This document shows positions 11,364 through 47,969 of a stretch of DNA of 64,000 nucleotides, in pieces. The position numbers were made by a program, and so were the translations under genes. Below the pieces are notes generated by a model that did no database searches, was not told the DNA's origin, and was given only the letters and a program-made list of their open reading frames with translations. The stretch's first letter is position 1, and the number at the start of each line of letters is the position of its first letter. The stretch is from Pirellulales bacterium (GTDB lineage: Bacteria; Planctomycetota; Planctomycetia; Pirellulales; Lacipirellulaceae), in the NCBI GenBank assembly GCA_019636345.1, contig JAHBXQ010000003.1, positions 682,001-746,000 on the forward strand, read 5' to 3'.

Positions 11364-12343
11364 CTCGAACGTCCGACTCGTCCCGACCCGAGCGACTCGT
11401 CCCGCCGGCGCTGCGGTCCGGGGACACGATTGGCGTGTTCGCCCCGGCGGGGGTCGTGCCGCGGGAAAGGCTTGAACGGGCCCTCGCGCGGATCAGCGCG
11501 CGGGGGTTCCGCGTGAAGACCTACGGCGACCTGTTTCGCGAGCGCGGCTACTTGGCGGGGGACGACGACGCCCGGGCGGCAGAGCTGAACGCGGCGCTGG
11601 CCGACCCTGAGACGACCGCCGTGATGCCGGCCCGCGGCGGTTACGGCTGCGCTCGGTTGGTGGATCGTCTCGACTACGCCGCGGTGCGCCGGCGGCCGAA
11701 ACTCGTCGCGGGGTTCAGCGACCTCACGGCGATCCACGCTGCGCTGGCCGCGCAGACGGGACTGGCGACGCTTCACAGCCCGAACCTCGTCGACGGTTGG
11801 GGGGGCGAGGAGCCGCCGACGGAATGGGTCGAGGAGAGCTTCTGGCAAGCCGCGGGGCTCGTCAGCGGCGTCTTCGGAGAGCTAACGGCCCCGCCGCCGC
11901 AAGCTGCCGCGGGGTTGGCGACGCTGCGATCCGGCGTCGCCGAGGGGCCGCTCATCGGCGGCAACGCGGCGGTGTTTGCGGGACTGACGGGTTCGCCCTA
12001 CATGCCCGATTTTGCCGGAGCGATCTTGTTTTTGGAGGACGTGGGCGAACGCCCCTATCGCCTCGATCGTATGCTCGCTCAGATGCGGCTGGCCGGGCTG
12101 CTCGACAAACTTGCCGGGGTCCTCCTGGGGCAGTTCACCGACTGCGACGAGGCCCCCGACAACCCGAGCCTGGCCCTGAGCGAGGTCTGGGACGACTACT
12201 TCGGCAGCCTGGGCGTCCCGGTACTCGCTGGCTATCCGACCGGCCACGTTCGCGATAACGCCACGCTCCCGCTGGGGACGTCGGTACGGATCGATGCGAC
12301 GAACCAAACGGTGCAGTGCGTTGCGGCAGACGCCCGGGGCTAG
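11360..12343 (+). CDS. ldcA: LD-carboxypeptidase, peptidase family S66
   Basis: The 327-residue cytoplasmic protein carries S66 hallmarks: the VFAPAGVV N-terminal strand, MPARGGYGCARLVDRLD, the nucleophile serine in GFSDLTA (S120), a glutamate in LFLEDVGERPYRLDRML (E226) and a histidine in GYPTGH (H296). Their spacing matches the Ser-Glu-His triad of characterised LD-carboxypeptidases. The enzyme removes the terminal D-Ala from tetrapeptide muropeptides, a step in peptidoglycan recycling. The ATG at 11360 is preferred over an upstream TTG because GAGG precedes it at 11351-11354 and it overlaps the spmB stop. Some S66 relatives (MccF) cleave other substrates, but the gene context supports muropeptides. 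Confidence 0.92.
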   Translation: MTRTSDSSRPERLVPPALRSGDTIGVFAPAGVVPRERLERALARISARGFRVKTYGDLFRERGYLAGDDDARAAELNAALADPETTAVMPARGGYGCARLVDRLDYAAVRRRPKLVAGFSDLTAIHAALAAQTGLATLHSPNLVDGWGGEEPPTEWVEESFWQAAGLVSGVFGELTAPPPQAAAGLATLRSGVAEGPLIGGNAAVFAGLTGSPYMPDFAGAILFLEDVGERPYRLDRMLAQMRLAGLLDKLAGVLLGQFTDCDEAPDNPSLALSEVWDDYFGSLGVPVLAGYPTGHVRDNATLPLGTSVRIDATNQTVQCVAADARG

Positions 12344-12372
12344 CGCACATGGCTCAGGTCCAGGGACGCCGC

Positions 12373-16612: not shown

Positions 16613-18147
16613 GATCGATCGGGTCCTGTCACAGGTTGCACGCGGGCGCGCTCCGCGAGCGGCCCTTCCCCCCATTGGCGAAACACGCCGATGGCAAACG
16701 TTGCGAGCGCCCCGATCGCGGCGTACCAGGGCCAATACACGTCGGTCGTCCGGGCAATCCAGGCCAGCACGACGATCCCCGTCACGTAACCGACCAGGGC
16801 CGGTCGCTGCTGCACGCGCGGCGCGAGCGCAGCGAGCATGTACAAACCCAGAGTCGGGCCCATGGCGAACGCGGCGATCATCAGCACGCTGTTCACGACG
16901 CTGGTCGTGGCGCCAAGTTCATTGGCCAGAATCGCCCCGCCGACCTGCACGGCGCCGAACACGGCCGTGGCGAACTTCCCCAGCGCGAGTTGGCGTTCGG
17001 GGAGAGCGTCGCGGTAGAGCTGCACCGGGAGCAAGTCGTTCACCAGCGCCGTCGCCGACGAATTGAGCGAACTGGACAACGTCGACATCGCCGCGGCGAA
17101 CACCGCCGCCAACGTGAGTCCCGTCAGTCCTTGAGGCAGGTGGTTCACGATGAAACTGGCGAACGCCCGATCGTTGTCCGCGGCGCCGAACGGCGTCGGC
17201 GGCGGGTAGGTCGCATAGAAGCACGCCAGCGCGATACCGATGATCAAGAACAATGCGAACTGGGCGCACACCACCAGCCCGCTGGCGACGAGCGCCGTGG
17301 TTGCGCTTCGCTGATTGCGAGCCGACAGCAGGCGCTGCACAGTCAGTTGGTCTGTGCCGTGCGTGGCGGCAGTCAGAAATCCGCCGCCGACCACCCCGGC
17401 CCAGAAGGTCATGCTCCCGCCGAGCAGCGTGGGGGTGAAATCGAGCACTTGCAGCCGCCCGGTCGTCCGACCGAACTCCCACAACTGTCCCCAGCCCTCG
17501 GGAAGTCGGTGGACGATCACGCCCAACGCGGCCGCGGCGCCGGCGACGTAGACGACGAACTGCAGGCAGTCGTTCCATACGACCGACTTCACGCCGCCGA
17601 AGTAAGTGTAAGCGATCGTCACGGCGCCGATCAGAAGCACGCAGATCGCAAACGGCATCCCGACCGCCTCGCGCAGCACGAGCGCGGTCAGATACAGTCG
17701 CAGGGCGTCGCTGACGTTGCGGGTGACGAGAAACAGCGCCGCAGCGAACCGCCGCGTCGGCCGGCCGAACCGGCCTTGCAGCACTTCGTACGCGGTGAAC
17801 AATTCGCCGCGAAAGTAGAGCGGCAGCAACACGACGGCCGCGACGATGCGCCCCACGATGTAGCCGAAGGTGATCTGCAGGAACGTCATGTCCCCCTTGG
17901 CCGCGAACGTCAGCCCCGGGATGCTGAGGAACGTCACGGTGCTCGTCTCGGTGGCGACGATCGACAGCAGGATGGTCCAGGTCGGCAGCGAACGTCCGCC
18001 GAGAAAGTAATCGGCCGTCGTCTTGTGACCGCGTCCCGCCCAGACGCCCAGCCCGATGATGGCCGCCAGGTACGCCAGCACGACCCCCGCGTCCACGGGG
18101 GGGATCGGCGCGTTCCAGCGGTCGGCGACGGCGGCGAGAACCGGCAT
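16609..18147 (-). CDS. Sodium:solute symporter (SSS family), candidate MurNAc importer
   Basis: The product has 512 residues with about 13 membrane segments. The family signature starts early (AGVVLAYLAAIIGLGVWAGR, then TTADYFLGGRSLPTW) and continues with VATETSTVTFLSIPG, GADQ-like THGTDQLTVQRLLSA, and SSLNSSATALVNDLL. It is translationally coupled to the NamZ fusion and divergent from murQ and a BadF-type kinase. In Tannerella an SSS-type MurNAc importer (MurT) sits with MurQ and a MurNAc kinase, so the same substrate is likely here, but this is inferred from context. The start is uncertain: ATG 18147 is chosen; an in-frame TTG at 18189 would add 14 residues. Neither has a clear ribosome-binding site. 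Confidence 0.88.
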   Translation of the reverse strand: MPVLAAVADRWNAPIPPVDAGVVLAYLAAIIGLGVWAGRGHKTTADYFLGGRSLPTWTILLSIVATETSTVTFLSIPGLTFAAKGDMTFLQITFGYIVGRIVAAVVLLPLYFRGELFTAYEVLQGRFGRPTRRFAAALFLVTRNVSDALRLYLTALVLREAVGMPFAICVLLIGAVTIAYTYFGGVKSVVWNDCLQFVVYVAGAAAALGVIVHRLPEGWGQLWEFGRTTGRLQVLDFTPTLLGGSMTFWAGVVGGGFLTAATHGTDQLTVQRLLSARNQRSATTALVASGLVVCAQFALFLIIGIALACFYATYPPPTPFGAADNDRAFASFIVNHLPQGLTGLTLAAVFAAAMSTLSSSLNSSATALVNDLLPVQLYRDALPERQLALGKFATAVFGAVQVGGAILANELGATTSVVNSVLMIAAFAMGPTLGLYMLAALAPRVQQRPALVGYVTGIVVLAWIARTTDVYWPWYAAIGALATFAIGVFRQWGEGPLAERARVQPVTGPDRS

Positions 18148-18351: not shown

Positions 18352-19266
18352 ATGCTCGAAAAACTGACCACCGAAGCTCGCAATCCCGCGTCGGAAGATC
18401 TCGATCGTCTCGACTCGTTGGGACTCGTGCGACTCATCAATTCCGAAGACGCGAAGATCGCCGCGGCCGTCGCCGCCGAAGAAGTCGCCATCGCCAAAGC
18501 GATCGATCTTGTCGCGCATCGCTTGGCCAGCGGCGGTCGATTGATTTACGTCGGCGCGGGCACGTCGGGGCGGCTGGGCGTGCTCGACGCGGCCGAGTGT
18601 CCTCCCACGTTCAACACCGACCCTGCGCAAATCATCGGTCTCATCGCCGGCGGCGAACAAGCCATGTTCCGCGCCGTCGAGGGAGCCGAAGACTCGCCCG
18701 AACTGGCCGCCGAGGACCTGCGCACTCTTGGACTCTGCAGCAACGACGTCCTCGTGGGAATCGCCACCAGCGGTCGCACGCCGTACGTCATCGGCGCCAT
18801 GGACTACGCCCGCAGCCAGGGGGCGAGCACGATCGGCCTGACCTGCAATCGCGACGCGCTGCTCAACTCGCGGAGCGACGTGGCGATCACCCCCGTCGTC
18901 GGCCCCGAGGTGCTCAGCGGCTCGACCCGCATGAAGGCCGGCACGGCGACGAAGATGGTGCTCAACATGATCACCACCGGCGCCATGGTGCAGCTGGGCA
19001 AGACCTTCGGCAACCTGATGGTCGACATGCGGGCGTCGAACTCGAAGCTGATGGACCGCACCAAGCGGATCGTTTGCCACACGACCCGCATCTCGCCCGA
19101 CGAGGCCGAGACGCTGCTCCGCCGCAGCGGCGGGGAGCTCAAGACCGCGATCGTCGTGCAGCGACTGGGCGTTTCGCCCGAGGAAGCCCGCCGCCGACTC
19201 GCTGAGGCCAAGGGGCAATTGCGGGCGGCGCTCGAGCTGCCGATGGTCGAGGCCGCCCGGCAATGA
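18352..19266 (+). CDS. murQ: N-acetylmuramic acid 6-phosphate etherase
   Basis: The 304-residue cytoplasmic enzyme cleaves the D-lactyl ether of MurNAc-6-phosphate to give GlcNAc-6-phosphate and D-lactate. The sugar-isomerase (SIS) signature is clear: YVGAGTSGRLGVLDAAECPP (about 66-85), with the catalytic-type Glu at 82. GLIAGGEQAMFRAVEGAEDS, GIATSGRTPYV and LSGSTRMKAGTATKMVLNM are all diagnostic for MurQ, and length matches the family (about 300). Its stop overlaps the following sugar kinase (ATGA), so phosphorylation and etherase steps are co-expressed. The divergent neighbour is the SSS/NamZ operon, which completes a MurNAc release-import-catabolism set. Confidence 0.97.
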   Translation: MLEKLTTEARNPASEDLDRLDSLGLVRLINSEDAKIAAAVAAEEVAIAKAIDLVAHRLASGGRLIYVGAGTSGRLGVLDAAECPPTFNTDPAQIIGLIAGGEQAMFRAVEGAEDSPELAAEDLRTLGLCSNDVLVGIATSGRTPYVIGAMDYARSQGASTIGLTCNRDALLNSRSDVAITPVVGPEVLSGSTRMKAGTATKMVLNMITTGAMVQLGKTFGNLMVDMRASNSKLMDRTKRIVCHTTRISPDEAETLLRRSGGELKTAIVVQRLGVSPEEARRRLAEAKGQLRAALELPMVEAARQ

Positions 19267-20237
19267 CGACCTCCCAGCCCGTACCGGGGGCCGCGACGTC
19301 GTCGACCCAGTTCGTGCTCGGCGTCGACGGCGGGGGAACCAAGACCGCGGCGTTGCTGGCCCGGGTCGCGTCGGACGGCACGCACGAGATTCTCGGCAGC
19401 GGCGTCGCCGGTCCTTCAAACCCGCTGGCGGCCGGCGTCGCGACGGCACGCGGCAATCTGGCCGAGGCCGCCGCCGAGGCGTGGCGCACCGCGGGGCTGG
19501 ACCCTCGTCCCGCCGATGCAGCCGTGTTCGCCGTTGCGGGTACCGGGCGCCCCGAGATGGCCGCCCAGATGCAGACGGCGGTCGAGGAGGACGCGATCGC
19601 CCGTCGCGCACAGTTCATCCACGACGCCGACGCGGTGCTCGCCGCGGGAACGCCCGCGGGGTGGGGCGTCGCCCTCATCGCGGGGACCGGTTCGTCGGCC
19701 GTCGGCGTCTCGCCGCAGGGGGAGCGGTTCGTGTGCGGCGGTTGGGGCTACCGCTACGGCGACGAGGGGAGCGGCTACTGGCTGGGGCGCGAGGCGCTGG
19801 CCGCCGTCGCCCAGGCCGACGACGGGCGCGCGGCGCCGACGCTCCTCGCCGAACTGATTCTCGCCAAGTTCGCCTGCACCGAACCGCGGGCGATCCTGGC
19901 TGCGCTCGTGGCGACCGGCGACGAGCGTGCGGCGATCGCGAGCGTGAGCCCGCTGGTGGCTGAGGCGGCTTTCCGCGGCGACGCTGCCGCGACCCGACTC
20001 TTGGGGCGGGCGAGCGATCACTTGGCGCAACTGGTCGTCGCAGCGGCAACGCGGTTGGAGTTGCCGCAGGGATACCCGCTGGCTCTGGCAGGCGGCGTGT
20101 TGTGCCGGTGCGACGCGGTGCGCCAGGGAACCGTCGATCGGCTGGCGGAGGCGAGCCCCGCGCCGGGAATCGTCCGCACCGCGCCCGACCCTGCCGCCGG
20201 ATGCATCCTCCTCGCCGCCAAACAACTCGCCCTGTAA
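19263..20237 (+). CDS. BadF/BadG-family sugar kinase, candidate MurNAc kinase (MurK-like)
   Basis: The 324-residue product shows the ASKHA ATPase pattern of BadF/BadG/BcrA/N-acetylglucosamine kinases: FVLGVDGGGTKTAALLA at the N-terminus, then AGTGSSAVG, GGWGYRYGDEGSGYWLGREAL and LALAGGVL. The family phosphorylates GlcNAc, GlcN or MurNAc. Overlap with murQ (ATGA at 19263) strongly suggests that the product is MurNAc-6-phosphate, as for Tannerella MurK. The alternative is a GlcNAc kinase acting on sugar freed by NagZ. No membrane segment or signal peptide is present. Confidence 0.88.
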   Translation: MTTSQPVPGAATSSTQFVLGVDGGGTKTAALLARVASDGTHEILGSGVAGPSNPLAAGVATARGNLAEAAAEAWRTAGLDPRPADAAVFAVAGTGRPEMAAQMQTAVEEDAIARRAQFIHDADAVLAAGTPAGWGVALIAGTGSSAVGVSPQGERFVCGGWGYRYGDEGSGYWLGREALAAVAQADDGRAAPTLLAELILAKFACTEPRAILAALVATGDERAAIASVSPLVAEAAFRGDAAATRLLGRASDHLAQLVVAAATRLELPQGYPLALAGGVLCRCDAVRQGTVDRLAEASPAPGIVRTAPDPAAGCILLAAKQLAL

Positions 20238-20345: not shown

Positions 20346-21419
20346 TCATCCGAACCGCACCGCGGTCCCCCCGGTGCGCGGTTTGTCGCAGCCGGTCGTC
20401 TCGGGGATGGTCAGCGGCAGTTGCAGTTGATGCCGCACCGCGAGCCAAGCGAAGCATTCCGCTTCGAGCGTGTCGGGGTTCAGCCCGAATTCGCTGACGG
20501 TGCGAACCTGTCCGAAGCGGTCGGCGAGCATCCGCATCAGCACCGGATGATGGACTCCGCCGCCGGTGACCCAGGTCCGCACGGGCATCTGCGGCAGTTT
20601 CTGCACGGCGCGGTAGATCGCTTCGACGGTGACTGCACACAACGTCGCGGCTCCGTCCTCGACTCCCAGGTGCGAGACGTCCACGTGGTCGAAGTCGAAC
20701 CGGTCGGCGCTCTTGGGGAGCGGCTGTTGAAAGAAGGGAGTCGCCAGAGCCGCTTCCAGGGTCTCTTCGTCCACTTCGCCCGCCAGGGCGAGGTGGCCGT
20801 CGCGGTCGTGCGGCATGTCGGCCATGGTTTGGGCCCACTCGTCGATGAGCCCGCACCCGGGGCCCGAGTCGCCGGCGATGATCTCGTTCTGCTCGCCCAG
20901 CCAGGTCACGTTGGCGACGCCTCCCAGGTTGAGCACAAGCGTGGGCCGCTTCTCCTTGCTGAACAGCGCCCGGTGGAACATGGCCACCAGCGGCGCCCCT
21001 TGGCCCCCCGCGGCGATGTCGCAGCGACGAAAGTCGTTGACCACCGGCAGGTCCAACTCCCGTGACAGCGTCCACGGGTTGCCGATCTGCAGCGTCAGTC
21101 GCTGCGCCGGCACGTGCCGCACCGTGTGGCCGTGGAAGCCCACGATCTTCACCTTGGCGGCCGCCTTGGGCTGCGAGGCCAGCAGCTCCTTCACGGCCCG
21201 AACATGCAGCGCGGTTATCTCGGCCTCGATCCGCAGCAGCTCGACCAGCGGGACGTCGTATTGCGACGCCTCGAGCAGCCGCAACCGCAGTTCCTCCTCG
21301 TACGGCAGGGTCAACCCGCCGAGAAAGCCGATCTGGTTTTCGCCGTCGGTGTCCAGCAGAGCGGCGTCGACGCCGTCGCCCGAGGTTCCGCTCATCAACC
21401 CGACTGCGATGGTTGCCAT
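20346..21419 (-). CDS. anmK: Anhydro-N-acetylmuramic acid kinase
   Basis: The 357-residue enzyme opens and phosphorylates 1,6-anhydro-MurNAc to give MurNAc-6-phosphate, the MurQ substrate. AnmK signatures are present in order: VGLMSGTSGDGVDAALL (7-23), GFHGHTVRH, VVNDFRRCDIAAGGQGAPL, LVLNLGGVANVTWL, AGDSGPGCGLIDEW and VTGGGVHHPVLM. The ATG at 21419 is chosen because it starts exactly at the family N-terminus (MATIAVGLMSGTSG). The gene converges on the BadF kinase gene with 108 bases between them. Anhydro sugars come from lytic transglycosylases, so this gene points to recycling of the cell's own wall as well as uptake. Confidence 0.97.
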   Translation of the reverse strand: MATIAVGLMSGTSGDGVDAALLDTDGENQIGFLGGLTLPYEEELRLRLLEASQYDVPLVELLRIEAEITALHVRAVKELLASQPKAAAKVKIVGFHGHTVRHVPAQRLTLQIGNPWTLSRELDLPVVNDFRRCDIAAGGQGAPLVAMFHRALFSKEKRPTLVLNLGGVANVTWLGEQNEIIAGDSGPGCGLIDEWAQTMADMPHDRDGHLALAGEVDEETLEAALATPFFQQPLPKSADRFDFDHVDVSHLGVEDGAATLCAVTVEAIYRAVQKLPQMPVRTWVTGGGVHHPVLMRMLADRFGQVRTVSEFGLNPDTLEAECFAWLAVRHQLQLPLTIPETTGCDKPRTGGTAVRFG

Positions 21420-21551
21420 GACGATTTGATCCGTACAGGAGGCGAGCGACGCGGAGGTCCCGGCGGCGAGCCCCGCCGGCCGGGGGGCCAAGGTAGCTTA
21501 GTATGCACCGCTCCGGGGGGAAGAAACGATTGCGAGGTTATCTCTCGATTA

Positions 21552-36963: not shown

Positions 36964-39900
36964 TTAGCGCGCCGTCGACTCGGCCGCGATCTCGCGGGCG
37001 ACGTCCTCGGTGCGGCGCATCACGCGGAGCAGGTTTTCGCCCAGCACCTTCTTGACGTCGGCTTCGCTGTAGCCCCGGTCGAGCAGGCCCTGGGTGATGT
37101 AGGGGTAACTCGCCGCGTCCTCGAGTTGCGTCGGCAACAGCGACACCCCGTCGTAGTCCGACCCCAGCCCCACGTGATCGATTCCCGCGATCCGGACGAT
37201 GTGGTCGATGTGATCCAAGAGGTCGTGGATCGTGCCGCGCAAGGTCGGGCGGGTCGCGTCCCAGCGGGCGAGCCCCGCTTCGATCGCGGGGCGGTCGTCG
37301 CCGTGTTCCGCCTCCAGCTTGCGCAGCTCGACGAAGCGCTGTTTGTCGCGCTCGGCCGACTGGGGGACGATGAACGCCGAGAAGAAATTGACCATCACCA
37401 CCCCGCCGTTGTCGCGCACCAGCGGCAGGACGTCGTCGGGGACGTTGCGGGGGTGGTCGGCCACGCCCCCGGCCGAGCTGTGCGAAAAGATGACCGGCGC
37501 CCGAGTCGCGGCGAGGGTCTGCTTCATGGCGTCAGGCGAGACGTGGGAGAGGTCGACCATCATCCCCAGGCGGTTCATCTCGCGGACCACCTCGACGCCG
37601 AAAGGCGCCAAGCCCCCCGCCTTCGGCTTGTCGGTCCCCGAGTCGGCCCAGTCGAGCGAGTCGCTGTGGGTGAGCGTCATGTACCGGGCGCCCAGGCGAT
37701 GGAGTTGCCGCAACGCGGCGAGCGAGCCTTCGATCGAATGGCCCCCCTCGACCCCGATGAGCGATGCGATCCTTCCCGACCAGTGGATGCGGACGATGTC
37801 GTCGGCCGTCAGGGCCAGCTCGAACGCATCGGGGTAACGGGCGATCATCGTCTGCACGAGGTCGATCTGCTCAAGCGTCGTCGACAAGGCTTGTCCGCGG
37901 CGGGCGGTGTAGACGGGGACCCAGACGCTCCAGAACTGGGCGCCGACGCCCCCCTGGCGAAGTCGGGGGATGTCGGTCTGCAACGACGATTGCGGTTGGC
38001 TGACGTCGAGTTTGTCGAACGAGCCGCCGGCCTGGGTCCGCACCTCCCACGGCATGTCGTTATGGCCGTCGACGACCAAACTGCTGCGGTGCAGACGTTC
38101 GGCCGCGGGGGTCAGCACGACCGGGTCGCGCGACGCGGGAGCGTGAATCGCCGTGGCCAGCACCGAGGTCCGCGGCGCCGCGGCGGCCTGGGGGGACGAA
38201 CCGAGCAGTTGGCTCCAGGCCCACCGATACAGATTGCGGCTGTCGGCGTAACGCGACTCGCTGCTCTCGGCGCCCAGGACGGCGACGATCAACCGGCGGC
38301 CGTCCCGCTCGCCCGCCGAGACGAGGCACGCCCCCGCGGCCGTCGTGGTGCCGGTCTTGACCCCGTAATACCCCTCGGTCGCCAGCAGCCGGTTCGTGTT
38401 GTACCAGGCGACGTTGCGGCGATACCCGCCGGGGCCGGTCACCGTGGCTCCCCGCTGCCGCGTGCCCACGACGTCTTTGAACAGCGGCAGCTCGAACGCC
38501 GCCCGGGCGAGCTTCGCCAAGTCGTGAGCGCTGGCGTGGTGCCCTTCGGCCGTCAGGCCGTGCGTGTTGGCGAACTGCGTGGCGGCGAGCCCCAACTCCG
38601 CGGCCGTGCGATTCATCGCGGCGACGAAGGCGTCGTAGGCGGCGGACCGTGCGGAGATTTCACTCGGCTCCGACGGCAGCGGCTGTCCAAGTCGCGCTCC
38701 GAAATGCTCGGCGAACGCCACCGTCGCGTCGTTGCCCGAGGGGAGCATCATGCCGTACAGCAGCTCGCGAACCGAAACCTGTTCGCCGATCCGCACGTCG
38801 GCCGTGGTGCCGATCGTGTCGTCGGCTCGCTTGGAGAACGTGACGGTCTCGTCCAAAACTTCGGGATGCTCGGCCGCGTACCTGAGCACGACGTACGCGG
38901 TCATGATCTTGGTGGTGCTGGCCATGTCGCGGGGCTCGTCGGGCTTGAGGCCCCACAGCAACTCGCCCGTGTCGGCGTCGAGAATCGCCCACGCCTTGCT
39001 CGCGGTGAACGGCGGGCCGTCGAGCGGGTCGGCCGGGTCGCGCGGCAGCTTGGCCGCGTTGAGCGCGTCCGGCTCCGGCGCCTTGGGGTCTTCTGTCGCC
39101 AACGGGCCGAGCGCCTCCCACGTCGCCGCGTCGACGATCCCGGTTTCCGGCAAGCCGCGGCTGCGCTGGAACGCTCGGACGCCGCTCTCGGTGTTGGGGC
39201 CGAAGTCGCCGTCGACCGCCAGCCCCGTCGAGGGGGTCGTGCGGGCGTTGATCGTTCGCTGCAGCGCCGCGACCAACTCGCCCGAGGCGCCCATGGCGAG
39301 CGTCTGCGGGCCGTCGTCAGTTGGCTTCGCGGGACCGTTCGGAGCGTAATGCCGATACGCCGCCGCGGCGATCTTGCCGATCAGCACTTCGGCCGCGTTC
39401 TCGGCGCCCCAGCTTTGGTCGGCGTTGTTGTTGGTCAGCACGCAGATGGCCAGCCGGCCCTCGGGCAGGTCGATTAACCCCGCGTCGGTCCGCGTGAGAT
39501 TGACCGCCCCGGTCTTATGAGCCAGCTTCACCCCGGGGGGCAGAAACCGGCCGAGCTTCGTCCGATCGAGGCAGGCGTACAAATGCCCGCGCATCGCGTC
39601 GGTCGACGCCTTGCTCCCCAACTTGCCGGCGTCGAGCAGCTCGAGCAGTTTCACCATGTCGGCCGCGGTCGTGCTCCCCAGGCCGTACAGTTGGCTCCGC
39701 TCGGGGAAGATCGACGTCTCGCGCCGGTAGACGAGCGAGTGGAGCTTCGTCTCGGGAAGTCCCAACTCCTCCATGTACTTGGCCGTCTCGGGCAACCCGA
39801 CCGCCTCGGCGACGAGGTTCGTGGCCGTGTTGTCCGAGTGGATGATCATCAGGTGGATCGCGTCGTGGAGCGACAGTTGCAGCCCGGCAGAGAACTGCTC

Positions 39901-40254
39901 CGTGAGGATTCCCGAGCCGGGGACTTTGTCCTCAGCTCGCAGCGTGAGCAGTTGCTGCGGATCGAGTCGCCCGGCGTCGACCGCGCGGTACGCGGTCGCC
40001 ATCAGCGGCAGCTTGACGAGGCTCGCCGTGGGCATCGGCAGGTCGGCCCGATAGGCGAACTCTTCCCCCGCGGGGAGGCGCTTCACCGCGATCGCCACGT
40101 CCCCTTCGTGCGCCTCGGCCAAGGCGGCGAGCTCCGAAGCGAGTGCGTCGGGAATCGACTTGGCGCGGGCTGCCAAGGGGAGTGCGAGCGCCGTCGCCGC
40201 GAGGGCCAGGGTCGACAAGCGAAGAGGATGCAGAAGCAGCGACGGGGTGCGCAT
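36964..40254 (-). CDS. Four-part fusion: class A beta-lactamase-like domain, PG-binding domain, S11 DD-carboxypeptidase, M19 dipeptidase
   Basis: The 1096-residue exported protein has four enzyme or binding modules. After a signal peptide (1-31), residues about 40-305 are a beta-lactamase-like serine hydrolase with SLVK (78-81), SDN (140-142) and KTG (247-249). About 320-385 is a peptidoglycan-binding_1 repeat (LAVDGDFGPNTESGVRAFQR). About 415-690 is an S11 D-Ala-D-Ala carboxypeptidase with STTK (446-449), SGN (506-508) and KTG (633-635). About 715-1090 is an M19 membrane-type dipeptidase with DGHND (H731, D733), VEGGHSIEG, and DHVGLGSDYDG. It could trim stem peptides and split the released dipeptide in one place. 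It lies 51 bases after the dipeptide epimerase gene. Such a combination is unfamiliar to me. Confidence 0.92.
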   Translation of the reverse strand: MRTPSLLLHPLRLSTLALAATALALPLAARAKSIPDALASELAALAEAHEGDVAIAVKRLPAGEEFAYRADLPMPTASLVKLPLMATAYRAVDAGRLDPQQLLTLRAEDKVPGSGILTEQFSAGLQLSLHDAIHLMIIHSDNTATNLVAEAVGLPETAKYMEELGLPETKLHSLVYRRETSIFPERSQLYGLGSTTAADMVKLLELLDAGKLGSKASTDAMRGHLYACLDRTKLGRFLPPGVKLAHKTGAVNLTRTDAGLIDLPEGRLAICVLTNNNADQSWGAENAAEVLIGKIAAAAYRHYAPNGPAKPTDDGPQTLAMGASGELVAALQRTINARTTPSTGLAVDGDFGPNTESGVRAFQRSRGLPETGIVDAATWEALGPLATEDPKAPEPDALNAAKLPRDPADPLDGPPFTASKAWAILDADTGELLWGLKPDEPRDMASTTKIMTAYVVLRYAAEHPEVLDETVTFSKRADDTIGTTADVRIGEQVSVRELLYGMMLPSGNDATVAFAEHFGARLGQPLPSEPSEISARSAAYDAFVAAMNRTAAELGLAATQFANTHGLTAEGHHASAHDLAKLARAAFELPLFKDVVGTRQRGATVTGPGGYRRNVAWYNTNRLLATEGYYGVKTGTTTAAGACLVSAGERDGRRLIVAVLGAESSESRYADSRNLYRWAWSQLLGSSPQAAAAPRTSVLATAIHAPASRDPVVLTPAAERLHRSSLVVDGHNDMPWEVRTQAGGSFDKLDVSQPQSSLQTDIPRLRQGGVGAQFWSVWVPVYTARRGQALSTTLEQIDLVQTMIARYPDAFELALTADDIVRIHWSGRIASLIGVEGGHSIEGSLAALRQLHRLGARYMTLTHSDSLDWADSGTDKPKAGGLAPFGVEVVREMNRLGMMVDLSHVSPDAMKQTLAATRAPVIFSHSSAGGVADHPRNVPDDVLPLVRDNGGVVMVNFFSAFIVPQSAERDKQRFVELRKLEAEHGDDRPAIEAGLARWDATRPTLRGTIHDLLDHIDHIVRIAGIDHVGLGSDYDGVSLLPTQLEDAASYPYITQGLLDRGYSEADVKKVLGENLLRVMRRTEDVAREIAAESTAR

Positions 40255-40305: not shown

Positions 40306-41328
40306 CTATTTCGTCAGCAACTCGACCCCGTGGCCGGGGGCGTCGGGGTAGCGGCAGCGCCCCCGGTCGACGCGGCAGCCGGTCGCCACGTCGCGGGCCA
40401 AGAGCGCGGCGCCGTCCATGTCGACGAAGTCCAACAGCGGCAACAACTGGGCGATCGCCGAGATCCCCACGGTCGACTCGGTCATGCAGCCGACCATCGT
40501 CTTCATGCCCAGCGATCGCGCCTCGGCGATCATCCGCCGTGCGGGGGTCAGCCCGCCGCACTTGACCAGTTTGACGTTCACGCCGTGGAATCGCCCCTGG
40601 CACCTCGAGACGTCGGCCTCGCTGATGCAGCTCTCGTCGGCGACGATCGGCAGGGCCGACTCGGCGTAGACCCGCCGCGACCCCTCGACGTCCTCGGCCG
40701 GCAGCGGCTGCTCGATGAACTCGACCCGCAGGGGGCGCAGCTCGCGCGAATTGCGGATCGTCTCCTCGACCCCCCAGCCGCAGTTCGCGTCGACCCGGAA
40801 CACGGCGTCGGTGTGCTTGCGAAGCTCGCGCACAATCTCCAAGTCGTGCGGCGTGCCGAGCTTGATCTTGTAGATCGGCCAGTCGGGCATCTCGTTGAGC
40901 TTGGCGACCATCTTCTCGATCGTGTCGATGCCGATCGTGTAGTTGGAGAGCGGCACGCGCTCGTTCGACAGTCCCCAGAGTTTATAGACAGGTTGGCCCT
41001 GTTGTTTCCCCCACAGGTCGTAGGCCGCTTGGTCGACGGCGCATAACGTGAACGAGTCGTCGCCGATCGCCGCGGCCAGTTCCGGCCAAAGCCGTTCGGG
41101 ATCGAGCCGATCGACCGCCGCGAGAACCGGCCGGGCCTTGTCGAGCGAAGCCCGCATCCGCTCGCGGGTGGCGTTGTAGTACTTGTTGGTCGTCGCCTCG
41201 CCGTAGCCGCGGCGAACGCCGTCGGTCAGTTCGACCACCAGCGTCGGTTGCACCGAGGTGCTCTCCCGCGAGATCGAGAAGACATGCCGCAGCGGCAGAT
41301 CGTATTCGTGGGCGACGGCTTGAATCAC
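40306..41328 (-). CDS. Enolase-superfamily dipeptide (L-Ala-D/L-Glu) epimerase or N-acetyl-D-Glu racemase-like enzyme
   Basis: The muconate-lactonizing subgroup of the enolase superfamily is clear: YKIKLGT with the base lysine, the metal ligands in VDANCGW, EFIEQPLP and VADESC, then VKLVKCGGL with the second lysine, and DMDGAALL near the end. Such enzymes epimerise L-Ala-D-Glu from murein to L-Ala-L-Glu. The preceding DUF1611 gene raises the alternative that it is a racemase for N-acetyl-D-glutamate (DgcA-like). GTG 41328 (340 residues) aligns with the family N-terminus; a TTG at 41385 would add 19 residues. It is cytoplasmic, in line with the DUF1611 gene upstream and the four-domain peptidase downstream. 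Confidence 0.88.
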   Translation of the reverse strand: MIQAVAHEYDLPLRHVFSISRESTSVQPTLVVELTDGVRRGYGEATTNKYYNATRERMRASLDKARPVLAAVDRLDPERLWPELAAAIGDDSFTLCAVDQAAYDLWGKQQGQPVYKLWGLSNERVPLSNYTIGIDTIEKMVAKLNEMPDWPIYKIKLGTPHDLEIVRELRKHTDAVFRVDANCGWGVEETIRNSRELRPLRVEFIEQPLPAEDVEGSRRVYAESALPIVADESCISEADVSRCQGRFHGVNVKLVKCGGLTPARRMIAEARSLGMKTMVGCMTESTVGISAIAQLLPLLDFVDMDGAALLARDVATGCRVDRGRCRYPDAPGHGVELLTK

Positions 41329-41434
41329 GCGAAAGGCCCCCGAGCGAGCAGGATCGACAACGTCAAGCAAGACCGACTGTGGCAAGCGGGGAGTTCATTC
41401 GTCGCTGGGCGTCCTTGCGATGCCGCCGCCTCGG

Positions 41435-42481
41435 CTACACCGCCACCGGCGCCAGCGCCAATGCCGCCTCGACCAGCGCGTCCGGGCCGTCGCGGATGAC
41501 GTCGCACACGGGGAGCCCCAGCAGTCGGCTCACCCGCTCGCGCTCTTCCTCGGCCTGTTCGGCGTTGAGTTTGCGGCTGTTCATTCCCACGCCGATGAAC
41601 CGCGACGGCCCCTGCAGGTTGGCCATTGTCTCGTAAATTCGCACCAGCTCGTCAAGCGGCTTGAGCGGAATGTGCTCCATCCCGTGCACGTGGGTGCGCC
41701 CCGCCTCGTAGCACATGACCATGCCGTGAGGCATGCAGCCGTGCAGCAGGCTGAGCGTGACCCCCGAGTAGCGGGGGTGCGTGAGGCAGGCCTGCCCCTC
41801 GATGACCATGAACTCATGATGCTGATTGGCGAGCACCAGCTTCTCGACCGCCCCGCTGACGAAGTCCGATACGACGCGATCGATCGGGCAGCCGTCGCCC
41901 TCGATCATAATGCCGGTCTGACCGGTGGCGACGAATTTGGCGTCGCGTCCCCGCGCCTGCAGGCCGCGGGCGATCTCGACCGAGACGACCATCTTGCCGA
42001 TGCTGCAGTCGTTGCCGACGGTGTGGATGCGAATGCAGTCGTCGCGAATCCCCTTGCGGTTGGGGACGTCCTTTTCGTCGTTCTTGCGGACGTCGATCAG
42101 CTTGACGCCGTGCTGGCGGGCGGCGGCGGCGAACTCGGGGTCGTCCGACATGAAGTCGTGCAGTCCCGACAGAATGTTCATCCCGCGGCGAATCGCTTCG
42201 AGCACGACGGGGCGCCAAGCGACGGGAATCTTGCCCCCCGAGGGGGCGATTCCCACCAACAGCGTGTTGGCCTCCGGCGCCGCAGCGAGTTGGCCGATGA
42301 CCGGCGTGTCGCCGCCGACGCCCAGCACCTCGCCGGCGGTTCGGCCCGCTTGATGCGTGTCGTACACGGCGACGACCTCTTCAGGCCGATACCGCAGCAC
42401 GCAGACGCCGGTTTTTGCCGTGATCGGCTCGGAATGGCCTTCGGTGAGGATGACGATGCGGCGCGATGAATCGTGTGACAC
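41435..42481 (-). CDS. DUF1611 P-loop protein, candidate D-glutamate N-acetyltransferase (DgcN-like)
   Basis: The 348-residue cytoplasmic protein has the DUF1611 pattern: RIVILTEGHSEP near the start, IAPSGGKIP, ILSGLHDF, then a P-loop-like VGNDCSIGKMVVSVEIARGL, FVATGQTGIMIEGDGCPIDR, and VIEGQACLTHPRYSGVTLSL. Members of this family (DgcN) are reported to N-acetylate D-glutamate, with an enolase-superfamily racemase (DgcA) as partner; the next gene here is such an enzyme. GTG 42481 has GAGG seven bases upstream and is chosen over a TTG at 42511. TGCGCA at 42637 lies upstream, so this gene probably starts a three-gene operon. Confidence 0.85.
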   Translation of the reverse strand: MSHDSSRRIVILTEGHSEPITAKTGVCVLRYRPEEVVAVYDTHQAGRTAGEVLGVGGDTPVIGQLAAAPEANTLLVGIAPSGGKIPVAWRPVVLEAIRRGMNILSGLHDFMSDDPEFAAAARQHGVKLIDVRKNDEKDVPNRKGIRDDCIRIHTVGNDCSIGKMVVSVEIARGLQARGRDAKFVATGQTGIMIEGDGCPIDRVVSDFVSGAVEKLVLANQHHEFMVIEGQACLTHPRYSGVTLSLLHGCMPHGMVMCYEAGRTHVHGMEHIPLKPLDELVRIYETMANLQGPSRFIGVGMNSRKLNAEQAEEERERVSRLLGLPVCDVIRDGPDALVEAALALAPVAV

Positions 42482-42645
42482 GTTGGGCCTCGAAATGATT
42501 TCTCGCCGCAACTGGGCGACGGCAACTCCCGCGTATCGAGTGTAGTGCGTGCGCGAGATGAATTAAAGCCAACGAATTTCGCGCAGAAAGTTATCGACCC
42601 CGCGCAGCCGAGGATGCAAAACAGCGGCGTCTGCGATGCGCAAAA
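42482..42645 (-). promoter_or_regulatory. Upstream region of the DUF1611-epimerase-peptidase operon
   Basis: This 164-base gap separates nagZ from the DUF1611 gene on the same strand. On the minus strand TTTTGCGCATCGC covers TGCGCA at 42637-42642, just after the nagZ stop. A related CGCGCA with flanking A/T occurs around 42579-42590. A new promoter here is likely but not proven. Confidence 0.35.
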
Positions 42646-44262
42646 CTAAGCGGAACCATCGCCTGCCAATCGCCGAGCCAGTGCGCGTTGGCTGATCGGA
42701 ACGTCGCTGAACGTGCAGAGTCGCGCCGCGGCGCGGGGAGTCGCCGCCAGCGCCGCCGGAGCGCCGAGGCAGGCGACCACGGTCGGGCGCCGCTCGGTCG
42801 TTTCGCGCAACCAGCGGTCGGCTGCGGCCGGCAGCCCGAACCGATGCCAGGCGGCCGGCTTCACGACGATCGCCGCCAGCAATTGCTCGGCCGCCGCGGT
42901 GTGCGCGGCCAGCGCTTCCCACTGGGCCGGGGGTTCGTCGCCGCGAAGTTCCACGAACTCGAGTCGCGGGAAACGTTCGGCCAACGCCGTGGCGAGCGGC
43001 GGTTCCGGCGGGTCGAGATGCGACCGATACTGCGTCACCAACACCGCCAGCAGCGGCCGCGCCGGATCGAGCAGCGGCGCGGTCGCGGCGGGGGCGCACT
43101 CGATCGCCGCGGCGGCAACCCGTTCGGCGAGTTCCTCCGTCCGTGCGCGCAAAGCGTCGTCGGACAGCGACGCGAACTGAGATCGGCCGCCGAAGTCGCC
43201 GGCGAATGCCAGCCGCTTGAGTCGCAGGATACGCTCCGCGGCCTCGTCGACGCGCGCAAGCGGAAGTCGCCCCGCGTCGACGGCGGTCTCCATGACGGCC
43301 AGCGCTGCGACCGGGTCGTTCAAATCCAACAGCGCGTCCGCCCCCGCGTTGACGGCCAGGACGCACAGCTCCCCCTCGCCGGCGGCGCGCCCCTGCACTC
43401 CGGCCATCATCATGCTGTCGGTGACCACGGCGCCGGTGAAACCGAGCTCGTCGCGGAGCAGGTCGACGAGGATCGACCGCGAAAGCGTCGCCGGCGCTCC
43501 CGAGTCGTCGAGCGCCGGATACCGCACATGGGCCGACATCACCAGCGGCGCCCCCGCGGCGATCGTCGCCCGGAACGGCGCCAGTTCCTGGGCGAGCAGT
43601 TCCTCGCGCGACGCGGAGACGACCGGCAGCGCATGGTGCGAATCTTCGTGCGTGTCGCCGTGGCCTGGGAAGTGCTTGGGCGCGGCGAGCAATCCCCCCG
43701 CGGCGCACCCCTCGACCAGCGCCGCGGCCAACTCCGCGGCGCGAGCCGGATCGGCGGCGAAGGCTCGCGTCGAGACGATCGGGTTTTGCGGGTTCGAGTC
43801 GACGTCGGCCACCGGCGCGAACGCGATGTGCAATCCGGCGCGGCGCGAAGCGACCGCCGTCAGTTCGCCGAACTGCCGGACTGCGTCGGCGGCGTCGGGG
43901 CCGAGCGACCCGAACGCCATCGCGTGGGGCGCCACAGGGTAGGGTCGCAACTGCTGCCCGTACCCTCGTTCGATGTCGGCCCCGACCAACAGCGGCACTC
44001 GGCTCTGCGCCTGCAGGCGGGCCAGCGCTGCGGGGCTCGTCGCGTGACGACCGTTGAACAGGATCAGCCCCCCGAGGGGCGCTTCGGCCAGCAGCGCCGC
44101 GATCCGCGCCTCGTCCTCGTCCGCCGTACGCACCGGAGGCATGTCCGACCCGAGCCGGACGAACATCAACTGCGCGAGCTTCTCGCGGAGCGAGAGCGCG
44201 GACGCATCGACGACGGAGGCAGGGGAATCGAACATGCTCTCGAGGTTCGGCAAGCGGCGCAT
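42646..44262 (-). CDS. nagZ: Beta-N-acetylhexosaminidase, GH3 family (NagZ)
   Basis: The 538-residue enzyme has no signal peptide, so it works in the cytoplasm on imported muropeptides, removing GlcNAc from (anhydro)MurNAc. The NagZ signature KHFPGHGDTHEDSH (196-209) supplies the His-Asp general-acid dyad, and VVTDSMMM holds the nucleophile Asp (about 282). About 150 extra residues after 385 form an alpha/beta C-terminal domain, longer than E. coli NagZ (341) and closer to two-domain Gram-positive forms. The start is unsure: ATG 44262 leaves 10 bases after the permease stop; GTG 44289 and ATG 44235 are alternatives. It is co-directional with the AmpG-like gene. Confidence 0.93.
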   Translation of the reverse strand: MRRLPNLESMFDSPASVVDASALSLREKLAQLMFVRLGSDMPPVRTADEDEARIAALLAEAPLGGLILFNGRHATSPAALARLQAQSRVPLLVGADIERGYGQQLRPYPVAPHAMAFGSLGPDAADAVRQFGELTAVASRRAGLHIAFAPVADVDSNPQNPIVSTRAFAADPARAAELAAALVEGCAAGGLLAAPKHFPGHGDTHEDSHHALPVVSASREELLAQELAPFRATIAAGAPLVMSAHVRYPALDDSGAPATLSRSILVDLLRDELGFTGAVVTDSMMMAGVQGRAAGEGELCVLAVNAGADALLDLNDPVAALAVMETAVDAGRLPLARVDEAAERILRLKRLAFAGDFGGRSQFASLSDDALRARTEELAERVAAAAIECAPAATAPLLDPARPLLAVLVTQYRSHLDPPEPPLATALAERFPRLEFVELRGDEPPAQWEALAAHTAAAEQLLAAIVVKPAAWHRFGLPAAADRWLRETTERRPTVVACLGAPAALAATPRAAARLCTFSDVPISQRALARRLAGDGSA

Positions 44263-44272
44263 CCCGCCGCGC

Positions 44273-46159
44273 TCAAGCCCCGCCGTCACGGCCGAAGTCG
44301 GCGTCCAGCGGGATGAACGCCGTGGCGGCGAAACTGGGAATCGTGGCGATCATAATCCACAGGAAGAATCGCTCGTAGCCGAGCAGCTCTTGCAGCCAGC
44401 CGCTGACCATCCCCGGCAGCATCATCCCCAGCGCCATCGCGCCGGTGCACAGGGCGTAGTGCACCGTCTTGTGCTCGCCCCGAGCGACGTACATGCAGTA
44501 CAGCATGTACGCCGTGAAGCCGAAACCGTAGCCGAACTGCTCGACCGCCACCGCCGCGTTGACCGCCAGGAAGCTCTCGGGCTGAAAGCAACTGAGGACG
44601 ACGTAGGCGAGGTTCGGCAGGTTGATGGCCAGCACCATCCACCACAGCCAGCGTTTGAGCCCGTGCCGCGCCGCGACGATGCCGCCGACGATCCCCCCCA
44701 GCGACAACATGACCACCCCGACCGTGCCGTAGACGAATCCCACTTCGCCGGTGGTGAGAGCGAGCCCCCCGGCGTCGCGCGAGTCGAGCAAGAACGGCGA
44801 GGCGATCTTCACCAACTGCGACTCGGCGAACCGGTAGAGCAGCAGAAACGCGAGCATCGGGACGATCCCCGGCTTGCGGAAGTAGCTCACCAGCGGTTCG
44901 GCCAGCCCCGCGAGCGACACGATTGAATCGCCATGCGGCTTGTCGCCCGGGGGACGCGGCAGGGCCAGCGCGTGATAGACCGACGCCAAGCAAAACAGCC
45001 CGGCGAGCGCGTAGAAGACGATCGTCCACGACAGCCGCACGTCCCCTGAGCGGAGTTCGAACGTCGCGGACGAAGGGGCGTCGAGCTTGGCGTCGGCCTG
45101 GACGATCGCGACGAACGGTCGCCGCCAGTTGTCGGCGGTCACGACGAATCGCTCCCCTTCGACGACCGCGAAGCTGGGATCCCCCTCGGCCCGGTCGAAC
45201 TGCACCACGAGGTTCGACCCCGGTTCGACTGGTTTGGAGACGCGCATCATGATTGCCGTCAGGTCGCCGGCGCGCTGGTCGGCGTCGGCCCGGCGCTGGC
45301 GCTGCGGGGGGCCGAACCTGTCGCGGATCAAACTCTCCAGACGTGCGATCCAGCCCGGCTTCTCCCCCGGCGTCGGGGTCGCGGGGGCTTCGGGGGCCGG
45401 GTGAAACGCATGCGCGACGTTCCACTCGCGCGCCGCGTCGATCAATTGCTTTGTCTCGGCCGGGGGGCGGCCCGTCAGCGCCAGCGTGAACGACTCGTTT
45501 CGCACAAGGATCCGTTGCGGTCCGTCGTCGCTCTCGTCGGGCGCCCAATTCGCCCAATCATCGACGAGCCGCGTCGGCTCAGCGTCGCTGATCTCCACGC
45601 GGGCCCGCTCCAACGGCAGGCCCGAGGAGGTTTCGATCAGCCCCGCAAGCATCACCAGCACCCCTTGCCCGACGATCATCGCCAGTCGGTAAAACGTACT
45701 GCGAATTCCGACGAACCACGCCTGCTGATGGCCGTCGAGCGCGTCGAGATAGAAGCCGTCGGCCGCCACGTCGTGCGTGGCCGACATGAACGCCACGAAC
45801 GCCAACGTGGCGAGCGAGTAGCGGAAGAAGTCTCCCATATTCAGCGCGAGCGCCGTGGCGGCGAACCCCGCCGCCACCAACGTCTGCATCGCCACCGTCC
45901 ACCGGCGGCGCGTGCCGAGCCCCTCGACGATCATGCTCCACAGGGGTTTGACGACCCAGGGCAGGTACAGCACGCTGGTGAACCACGCAATGTCGCGGTT
46001 CGACACGCCCAGCCGCTTGTACATGATGACCGCGGCGGTCATCACGACGACGTAGGGGACCCCCTCGGCGAAGTAGAGACTCGGGATCCAGCGCCAGGGC
46101 CCGCGGTCGGCGGGGGCGGAATTCGCGGCGGCGTCGGCGTGAGTCACGGGGCGGATCAA
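44273..46159 (-). CDS. ampG: AmpG-like muropeptide permease with large periplasmic-type insertion
   Basis: The product is a major-facilitator protein of 628 residues. The AmpG pattern starts at SLYFAEGVPYVVVMTAAVIM and includes KPLWSMIVEGLGTRRRW and SATHDVAADGFYLDAL. AmpG imports GlcNAc-anhydroMurNAc and its peptides; nagZ directly downstream and a wall hydrolase upstream fit that role. About 200 residues (177-375) without membrane segments separate the first and second helix groups, much more than in E. coli AmpG. The insert has beta-rich parts (SFAVVEGERFVVTADNWRRP). The TTG start at 46159 overlaps the GHL10 stop by four bases; GTG 46147 is possible. No ribosome-binding site is evident. Confidence 0.87.
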   Translation of the reverse strand: MIRPVTHADAAANSAPADRGPWRWIPSLYFAEGVPYVVVMTAAVIMYKRLGVSNRDIAWFTSVLYLPWVVKPLWSMIVEGLGTRRRWTVAMQTLVAAGFAATALALNMGDFFRYSLATLAFVAFMSATHDVAADGFYLDALDGHQQAWFVGIRSTFYRLAMIVGQGVLVMLAGLIETSSGLPLERARVEISDAEPTRLVDDWANWAPDESDDGPQRILVRNESFTLALTGRPPAETKQLIDAAREWNVAHAFHPAPEAPATPTPGEKPGWIARLESLIRDRFGPPQRQRRADADQRAGDLTAIMMRVSKPVEPGSNLVVQFDRAEGDPSFAVVEGERFVVTADNWRRPFVAIVQADAKLDAPSSATFELRSGDVRLSWTIVFYALAGLFCLASVYHALALPRPPGDKPHGDSIVSLAGLAEPLVSYFRKPGIVPMLAFLLLYRFAESQLVKIASPFLLDSRDAGGLALTTGEVGFVYGTVGVVMLSLGGIVGGIVAARHGLKRWLWWMVLAINLPNLAYVVLSCFQPESFLAVNAAVAVEQFGYGFGFTAYMLYCMYVARGEHKTVHYALCTGAMALGMMLPGMVSGWLQELLGYERFFLWIMIATIPSFAATAFIPLDADFGRDGGA

Positions 46160-47730
46160 TCGCGCTGGAGGAGGACGCGGGTCGCGGGGCCCTCGAGCCC
46201 GGTGCGCGACACGGCCGAGACGGACGCCTCGACCACGCGGGCGCCGGCGGCGACGGATGCAGTGTACCGTCGCTCGTGCCCGGGGACGACGGCGGCTTCC
46301 CAGCGATCGCCTCGCTTGAGTTGCACGACCCAGAGCCAGGGGCGACTCGCTCCCGGCAGATCGAATCGCACCGTCACCGCGTCGCGCGACGCCCCGGCGG
46401 TCGCCTGCGGCGTCGCGGGGATCGGGCCGTCGGCTCCTGGCAGCGGCGGCACGAGCGCCGGCTTTGCGTACAGATTCTCACGGAGTTTCTCGGCCAAGCC
46501 GTCGTAGTCCTTGGCGAGCGCCTTCATGCTGAAGTGGACGTTCCCGCGGGCGCCCGGTTGGGCGCGGGTCGCTTCGATCTGGCGGAGAATCTCCGTCGCT
46601 TCCCAGTGTTGGTCGTCGGCGGGGACGCGCGCCGAGGTTCGCACTCGCGACGTGTAGTTCCCCGGCCAAAGTTCCCGCCCGTGCACGTTCTCTTCGGCCC
46701 ACCAAGCCAGGAGTTTGGGATAACTCTGCTGCTGCTTCTCAATCGGCCAGTACAACTGCGGGGTGAAGTAATCGACCCACCCCTCTCGCAGCCACTTGCG
46801 GGCGTCGGCGTACAGGCTGGCGTACTGGTCAAACCCGGTGATCCCCGGCGGATTGCCGGGGCGCCAGATGCCGAACGGGCTAATGCCGACCTTGACCTCG
46901 GGTCGCAGTCGTTTCACTTCGCGATACATCCGCTCGACCAGCCGATCGACGTTCTGCCGGCGCCAATCGTCGCGCTCGAGCGTCTCGCCCGCGGCGACCG
47001 CCCGCTCGTAGCTGGCGTCGTCGGGGAAGGGAACCGGTTTGCCGGCGTCGTCGTTGATCGGGTACGGATAGAAGTAGTCGTCCAGGTGGACCCCGTCGAC
47101 GTCGTACCGCGCGACGACGTCGGCGACCACGGCGATGAACCGATCGACCGAGGCCGGTTCGCCCGGATCGAACCACAGGTACTTGCCGTACTGCTTCACC
47201 GCGTCAGGCATCGTGCGGCTGGCGTGATTGGGCGCGACTCCTCCCTTGGCGTCGGGATGCTGCACCCGATAGGGATTGAACCACGCGTGCAGCTCGATCC
47301 CGCGGCGGTGGGCTTCCCGCACGGCGAACTCGAGCGGGTCGTAGTACGGCGCCGGCGGCTTGCCCATCGTTCCCGACAGGTAAGCGGACCATGGTTCGAG
47401 CTTCGATGCGTAGAGTGCATCTGCGGCGGGCCGCACTTGCAGGATTACCGCGTTGAGGCGCAATCCGGCGGCGCAATCCAACAGGGCGATCAGCTCCTGT
47501 TGCTGCTGCTGGCCGGTGAGCCCGGGGCGCGAGGGCCAATCGATGTTCGCCACGGTGGCGATCCAGGCGGCGCGGAATTCGCGCTGCACCGCCGGCGGGG
47601 CGTCGTCGCCGAGTTGCTGACCGAAGACCGGCTGCAGCAAAACCACTGGGCTAATCGCCAGCCAACCGACCAATACCGGCCGTCCCGACGAGCGCGCCGA
47701 GCCTCGCGGAGTGTCGAGAAGAGTTTTCAT
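46156..47730 (-). CDS. GHL10-type (DUF187) secreted glycoside hydrolase, DigH/YngK-like
   Basis: The 524-residue product has a signal peptide (hydrophobic about 18-37, ending VFGQ). The GHL10 TIM barrel follows: REFRAAWIATVANIDWPSRP, LNAVILQVRPAADALYASKL, PLEFAVREAHRRGIELHAWF, and YDVDGVHLDDYFYPYP, with the acidic DD pair typical of the active site. KVGISPFGIWRPGNPPGITG and DYFTPQLYWP complete it, and a fibronectin III-like domain ends the protein. Relatives such as E. coli DigH (YddW) act on peptidoglycan glycan strands stripped of peptides. Here it heads the GHL10-ampG-nagZ operon and would supply sugars for import. Confidence 0.9.
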   Translation of the reverse strand: MKTLLDTPRGSARSSGRPVLVGWLAISPVVLLQPVFGQQLGDDAPPAVQREFRAAWIATVANIDWPSRPGLTGQQQQQELIALLDCAAGLRLNAVILQVRPAADALYASKLEPWSAYLSGTMGKPPAPYYDPLEFAVREAHRRGIELHAWFNPYRVQHPDAKGGVAPNHASRTMPDAVKQYGKYLWFDPGEPASVDRFIAVVADVVARYDVDGVHLDDYFYPYPINDDAGKPVPFPDDASYERAVAAGETLERDDWRRQNVDRLVERMYREVKRLRPEVKVGISPFGIWRPGNPPGITGFDQYASLYADARKWLREGWVDYFTPQLYWPIEKQQQSYPKLLAWWAEENVHGRELWPGNYTSRVRTSARVPADDQHWEATEILRQIEATRAQPGARGNVHFSMKALAKDYDGLAEKLRENLYAKPALVPPLPGADGPIPATPQATAGASRDAVTVRFDLPGASRPWLWVVQLKRGDRWEAAVVPGHERRYTASVAAGARVVEASVSAVSRTGLEGPATRVLLQRD

Positions 47731-47765: not shown

Positions 47766-47837
47766 CAAGGCATGCGCACTCGCTTCGCGTTTTTGCGTAG
47801 CGGACGCGATTCGCGGTTGGCGCATGTCGCCGGTTTG

Positions 47838-47867: not shown

Positions 47868-47969
47868 GCAAGCAGAGGCCGCTTGCCTTCCGGTCGTCGC
47901 CGACGACCTCCCGCCGAGTTGCGCCGGCTTCTTGTGTGCGCCATCGCTTCGGAACGAAGAGGCAGTCCC

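Follow-up and report, generated by a model that had tools for sequence, protein, structure and literature searches.

A predicted exported planctomycete protein combining a PG-binding module, two serine hydrolase domains and an M19 dipeptidase, with a putative role in peptidoglycan salvage

Domain organization of the protein

The window, by which we mean the whole 64,000-nucleotide stretch analyzed, encodes a protein of 1096 residues whose frame begins with ATG and whose chain runs from a signal peptide through a class A beta-lactamase fold, a peptidoglycan (PG)-binding domain and an S11 domain to an M19 domain (Table 1). All four Pfam matches exceed their gathering cut-offs: PF13354 (residues 55-274, 222 bits), PF01471 (residues 324-382), PF00768 (several stretches, the top one at residues 539-663 with 187.8 bits against a cut-off of 27.6), and PF01244 (residues 721-1080, 371 bits against a cut-off of 26). 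The signal peptide was called by reading the sequence, without a predictor.

Table 1. Features of the four-domain gene, of its operon and of other candidate cell-wall genes in the window
Feature	Position	Strand	Basis
Four-domain predicted exported protein, 1096 aa	36964..40254	-	ORF + Pfam + AlphaFold
Putative Sec-type signal peptide, residues 1-31, AxA-type end ...AARA/KS (slash marks the end)	40162..40254	-	Read from sequence
Class A beta-lactamase-fold domain, residues 36-303; S78LVK (S78xxK81), S140DN (SDN140-142), K247TG (KTG247-249), Val175 at Glu166 position	39346..40149	-	Pfam + sequence + structure comparison
PG_binding_1 domain, residues 324-382	39109..39285	-	Pfam 55.1 bits, cut-off 23
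S11 DD-carboxypeptidase domain, residues about 409-686; S446TTK, S506GN, K633TG	38197..39030	-	Pfam + structure search
Flexible linker, residues 687-706, pLDDT under 50; fusion site, without internal signal peptide	38137..38196	-	AlphaFold + junction comparison
M19 dipeptidase domain, residues 721-1080; H731ND (H731, D733), E836GGH (E836), H904, H925, R936, D1033	37015..38094	-	Pfam + structure search
Epimerase-type protein, enolase superfamily: L-Ala-D/L-Glu epimerase or N-acetyl-D-Glu racemase (DgcA-like)	40306..41385	-	Pfam + NCBIfam + alignment
DUF1611, DgcN-like (N-acetyltransferase of D-Glu catabolism)	41435..42511	-	Pfam + NCBIfam
GH3, NagZ-like beta-N-acetylhexosaminidase	42646..44289	-	Pfam + NCBIfam
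MFS permease, AmpG-like	44273..46159	-	Pfam + NCBIfam
GHL10 (glycosyl hydrolase-like 10), first gene of operon	46156..47730	-	Pfam
LD-carboxypeptidase, S66, LdcA-like	11345..12343	+	Profile search
Beta-lactamase-family domain fused to NamZ exo-muramidase	14153..16735	-	Profile search
MurQ, MurNAc-6-P etherase	18352..19266	+	383.9 bits, cut-off 302
GlcNAc kinase-like (NagK-like, BadF family)	19263..20237	+	Profile search
AnmK, anhydro-MurNAc kinase	20346..21491	-	404.5 bits, cut-off 352

The initial annotation took the catalytic motifs of two serine hydrolases and of an M19 enzyme to be intact. This is borne out, since every named motif is present and nearly all are conserved among the 36 N-terminal and 30 M19 relatives that were aligned. 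The Ser/Lys, SGN and KTG residues of the S11 domain are unchanged in all 36 relatives, as are the residues of the M19 di-zinc metal site (HxD, E, H, H, R, and D) in all 30. The motifs of the class A-fold domain are also kept, save that 9 of the 36 carry Gly or Ser instead of Thr248 in KTG and that one relative has Glu in place of the Asp of SDN. Pfam, the motifs and the signal peptide likewise agree with the annotation's description of a single predicted exported chain in which an M19 dipeptidase is joined to a PG-binding module and to two serine hydrolases, whose PBP-fold active sites are both intact. We infer that this chain is exported and retained on peptidoglycan.

AlphaFold folds the domains confidently (pLDDT mostly 85-98) and gives low confidence to two linkers, residues 308-315 and 687-706. 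The pTM of 0.46 leaves the mutual orientation of the domains undefined, and the structure searches place no constraint on it. In Foldseek searches, the M19 domain hit Sco3058 and the S11 domain hit the Streptomyces K15 DD-transpeptidase; hits for the first domain were a Sphaerobacter beta-lactamase, LRA-5 and PBP-A.

Reality and origin of the fusion

A match to the protein was found in 34 of the 43 genomes of the source's family: four carry the full fusion (G000, G197, G186, and G190), 28 have split genes, one has the first part only, and one has a fragment. The split form consists of a gene for the class A fold, PG-binding and S11 domains and a gene for M19, usually neighbors, many of which adjoin or overlap by a few bases. 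Lacipirellula limnantheis, a relative that can be cultured, has the split form. The three-domain protein is the widespread core, and it also occurs beyond the order, in another family of the class.

Separate genes in relatives were what the initial annotation expected of a missed stop or a sequencing error. Such relatives do predominate (28 of 34), but that reading of them is wrong, since the fused frame occurs in four genomes on two branches and lacks an internal signal peptide. An assembly or sequencing artefact that joined two genes is vanishingly improbable, despite the two genes seen in most relatives: the frame has no internal stop codon, and the identical architecture recurs in the separate assemblies L003/G197 (apparently one genome, MAG HKST-UBA22), G186, and G190, independent copies that rule out an assembly join. 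The fused protein of L003/G197 is 71% identical to that of the window, and for G186 and G190 the figure is 62%.

A concatenated tree puts the fused proteins at two separate positions, G000 with G197 and G186 with G190, the latter pair beside the split G174. Constraining the four-domain fusions to a single clade was 142 log units worse (AU test, p-AU 5e-6), which rejects a single origin; one early fusion followed by later splits would need more changes as well as new signal peptides. The four-domain fusion arose at least twice. G101 and G071, members of another family, have a separate S11-M19 fusion that lacks the first two domains, and their class A-fold gene is located elsewhere.

The junctions were compared by eye. 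The N-termini of split M19 proteins look like signal peptides, and such a hydrophobic segment is kept at the fused junctions of neither clade. In G186/G190 the mature M19 start follows almost directly after the end of S11, and the linker of G000/G197 is about 20 residues longer. This bears on whether the fusion was incidental, with a stop lost between translationally coupled neighbors and the domains still working singly without any new coupling. The close spacing of the two genes in many relatives fits such an event, as do the predicted disorder of the linker and the undefined domain orientation. Against it stand at least two four-domain origins and one S11-M19 origin, and plain read-through would retain the M19 signal peptide that is missing from the fused forms. 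We regard an incidental fusion as unlikely, though it keeps some weight.

The fusion is thus genuine and recurrent. It is a new architecture built from known families and does not amount to a novel type of system. M19 often takes part in fusions in planctomycetes: in others it is joined to an Amidohydro_3 domain (L080:6702-9575, L081:5039-8086, and L082:6163-9132), and in another to asparaginase II (L084:5724-7991).

The first domain resembles PBP-A

The first domain had been described as beta-lactamase-like, a label that suits its fold but probably not its enzyme class, since it has Val in place of the deacylating Glu166. By phmmer alignment, Val175 falls at residue 166 of LRA-5, whose wild type also has Val there, a position fixed by the solved V166E mutant. 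Counting from the conserved Thr169, Val175 corresponds to L158 of PBP-A, for which an L158E mutant has been solved. The position is V in 34 of the 36 relatives and T in 2. The omega-loop general base is therefore not present in the first domain; a class A fold lacking this Glu, as seen here, is a trait of PBP-A-type DD-peptidases. PBP-A has DD-carboxypeptidase and DD-endopeptidase activity without an omega-loop Glu, and the family has been reported solely from cyanobacteria (PMC11189452). Ranked by sequence against the PDB, 4ewf comes first, followed by PBP-A and LRA-5; by structure comparison LRA-5, PBP-A, 4ewf and several beta-lactamases tie at Z 35-37.

A true beta-lactamase that protects the wall and the S11 domain against beta-lactams would be expected to have the class A fold with SxxK, SDN and KTG motifs, as this domain does, and a conserved Asp/Glu lies nearby at residue 179. 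The LRA-5 and PBP-A alignments, however, place Val175 rather than residue 179 at the Glu166 position, where LRA-5 has Val and PBP-A has Leu, and the NCBIfam class A beta-lactamase model NF033103 scores 123.4 bits, below its equivalog cut-off of 200. We consider a true beta-lactamase improbable. Because Val replaces the deacylating Glu166, the first domain is more likely a second DD-peptidase of the PBP-A-like kind.

Substrates of the S11 and M19 domains

No second S11 or M19 match was found in the genome, so the 1096-residue protein holds its only S11 and its only M19 domain. One S13 member is another possible DD-peptidase, and the proposal that this protein is the sole DD-carboxypeptidase of the genome was dropped on that account. 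One NlpC/P60 protein (YkfC-like) is encoded elsewhere in the genome, and its nearest solved relative is dipeptidyl-peptidase VI.

The M19 family is known for hydrolysis of L-Xaa-D-Xaa dipeptides, and Sco3058, the closest M19 structure, was solved with an L-Leu-D-Ala phosphinate. The M19 domain is more likely to act on L-Xaa-D-Xaa dipeptides such as L-Ala-D-Glu than on D-Ala-D-Ala; our literature search found no direct study of an M19 enzyme acting on L-Ala-D-Glu. Were M19 instead a D-Ala-D-Ala or D-Ala-D-Xaa dipeptidase, the chain could act as a VanX/VanY-type wall editor that pairs a carboxypeptidase with a dipeptidase. Removal of terminal D-Ala by S11 would fit such editing, as would the independent S11-M19 fusion without the class A-fold part. 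Yet no VanY family member was found in the genome, D-Ala-D-Ala is a cytoplasmic precursor while the protein is predicted to be exported, and the nearest M19 relatives are L,D-dipeptidases, all of which makes wall editing of this type very improbable.

Operon and wider gene neighborhood

The four-domain gene is the last of an operon in the order GHL10, AmpG-like, NagZ-like, DgcN-like, epimerase/DgcA-like, with all genes on one strand and short or overlapping gaps. Most family members have the DUF1611-epimerase pair immediately upstream, and many also have GHL10-AmpG-NagZ. Several assignments stay below their NCBIfam cut-offs: TIGR00901 is the top model for the AmpG-like gene at 153.3 bits (cut-off 350), and NF041892 gives the DgcN-like gene 278.5 bits (cut-off 480). 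For the epimerase-type gene, the DgcA model NF042940 is the top NCBIfam model with 215.4 bits (cut-off 400), and the L-Ala-D/L-Glu epimerase model NF011708 gives 141 bits (cut-off 343). The closest PDB entry to its product is 3iji, and a DMD motif near the C-terminus aligns with the DLD of E. coli YcjG (1jpd) and of the 3iji enzyme. This DxD motif of dipeptide epimerases is presumably the dipeptide ammonium site. The product may be either an L-Ala-D/L-Glu epimerase or a DgcA racemase. DgcN is described in PMC12363236 as a key gene of a D-Glu racemization pathway.

In one relative (L109, G103:C1:1895000-1903000), the DUF1611-epimerase-S11 genes are some 40 kb away from M19, which is grouped with GHL10, AmpG and NagZ. 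Divergent from the operon of the window is a gene (47772-50834, +) with a GH25 (lysozyme-type) domain and an autotransporter-type PATR repeat.

Within 29 kb of the four-domain gene are the LdcA-like, NamZ, MurQ, NagK-like and AnmK genes, with an SSF symporter gene in the same part of the window. The NamZ protein is a second cell-wall fusion, in which a serine beta-lactamase-family domain is joined to a NamZ exo-beta-N-acetylmuramidase. The NamZ match lies in open frames of about 770-925 residues in many family members, which suggests that this fusion is common in the family. NamZ is less than 40 kb from the S11 gene in 11 of the 29 family genomes having both, and in ten of the rest the two are on different contigs.

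Most of the window (7896-21491 and 28105-50834) looks like a peptidoglycan-salvage island comprising an M14 peptidase, LdcA-like, NamZ, the SSF symporter, MurQ, NagK-like, AnmK, an Amidase_3 protein, a gamma-glutamyltransferase, the recycling operon, and the GH25-like protein. A large secreted protein (28105-31662, -) has Golvesin_C, weak Amidase_3, fn3 and dockerin-like domains, and a pair of Gate-domain genes (spore maturation SpmA/SpmB-like; 9757-11363, +) lies directly upstream of the LdcA-like gene.

Proposed role in peptidoglycan salvage

We propose, with moderate confidence and from sequence evidence, that the protein is a wall-anchored, exported enzyme that trims stem peptides in a peptidoglycan-salvage system. 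The PBP-A-like and S11 domains would take off D-Ala5 and might also open 4-3 crosslinks. An exported DPP VI/YkfC-like NlpC/P60 enzyme would make L-Ala-D-Glu outside the cell, and M19 would split dipeptides with a terminal D residue, most likely L-Ala-D-Glu or else mDAP-D-Ala. We thus infer a chain of steps from NlpC/P60 to M19 beside DD-peptidases that trim D-Ala, two steps of one outer pathway that the fusion would hold together on the wall. The DgcN-like and epimerase/DgcA-like proteins would process D-Glu or L-Ala-D-Glu, and the sugars would go to the AmpG-like, NagZ-like, NamZ, MurQ, NagK-like and AnmK proteins. The wall material may be the cell's own or that of dead bacteria.

Taken together, several lines of evidence make this role fairly probable: the domains and motifs, the operon, the repeated fusion, the signal-peptide-like starts of split M19 proteins and their absence from the fused junctions, the presence of the genome's only S11 and M19, the MurQ, AnmK, NagK-like, NamZ and LdcA-like genes of the window, the nearness of NamZ in 11 of 29 family genomes, the layout in G103, the likeness to Sco3058, and the YkfC-like gene. 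Against it, the dipeptide pathway would have to span the membrane, since M19 is predicted to lie outside the cytoplasm and the NagZ, epimerase and DgcN-like proteins are apparently cytoplasmic; the last two also score under the equivalog cut-offs; and the S13 member may be a further DD-peptidase. Because M19 is also fused to Amidohydro_3 or asparaginase II elsewhere, it may serve wider peptide catabolism.

A more specific and tentative possibility is that one wall-bound chain with two DD-peptidases and an L,D-dipeptidase heads a dedicated pathway leading from peptidoglycan into D-Glu catabolism through DgcN/DgcA, an undescribed layout favored enough to have been fused repeatedly in planctomycetes. 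Our literature search found no direct study of planctomycete cell-wall recycling, and salvage in these bacteria seems hardly worked out. The window offers a nearly complete set of salvage genes. The repeated fusion places S11 and M19 in a single pathway; it offers a testable role for bacterial M19 enzymes and, as a sink for wall D-Glu, for the DgcN/DgcA pair. With the first domain, the range of PBP-A-like enzymes, which are closely related to class A beta-lactamases, would reach beyond cyanobacteria.

Comparison with known systems

The first domain shares with PBP-A of Thermosynechococcus elongatus (PDB 2j7v) the class A fold, the SxxK/SDN/KTG motifs and the lack of an omega-loop catalytic Glu (Z 35.3, 25% identity). 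PBP-A has no PG-binding, S11 or M19 partners, whereas the window domain is planctomycete and has a longer omega loop. The S11 domain has the fold and the SxxK, SGN and KTG motifs of S11 DD-peptidases such as the Streptomyces K15 DD-transpeptidase and PBP5/DacA but is part of a longer chain, with a PG-binding domain before it and M19 after it; the C-terminal domain of PBP5 was not found in the window protein by Pfam. The M19 domain is 47% identical to the dipeptidase Sco3058 (3id7, 3s2j) over about 380 columns (Foldseek), with the metal-site residues conserved. Sco3058 is a single-domain chain of about 400 residues, while the window M19 is the C-terminal part of a putative wall-anchored chain.

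At the level of the pathway, murein-peptide recycling in E. coli and B. subtilis (AmpG, LdcA, MpaA or YkfC, YcjG/YkfB, and PepD; PMC2954226) is matched in the window by AmpG-, NagZ-, LdcA- and epimerase-type genes together with MurQ/AnmK. The window differs in having, in addition, a DgcN-like gene, the NamZ fusion, and a predicted exported chain that unites M19 with DD-peptidases.
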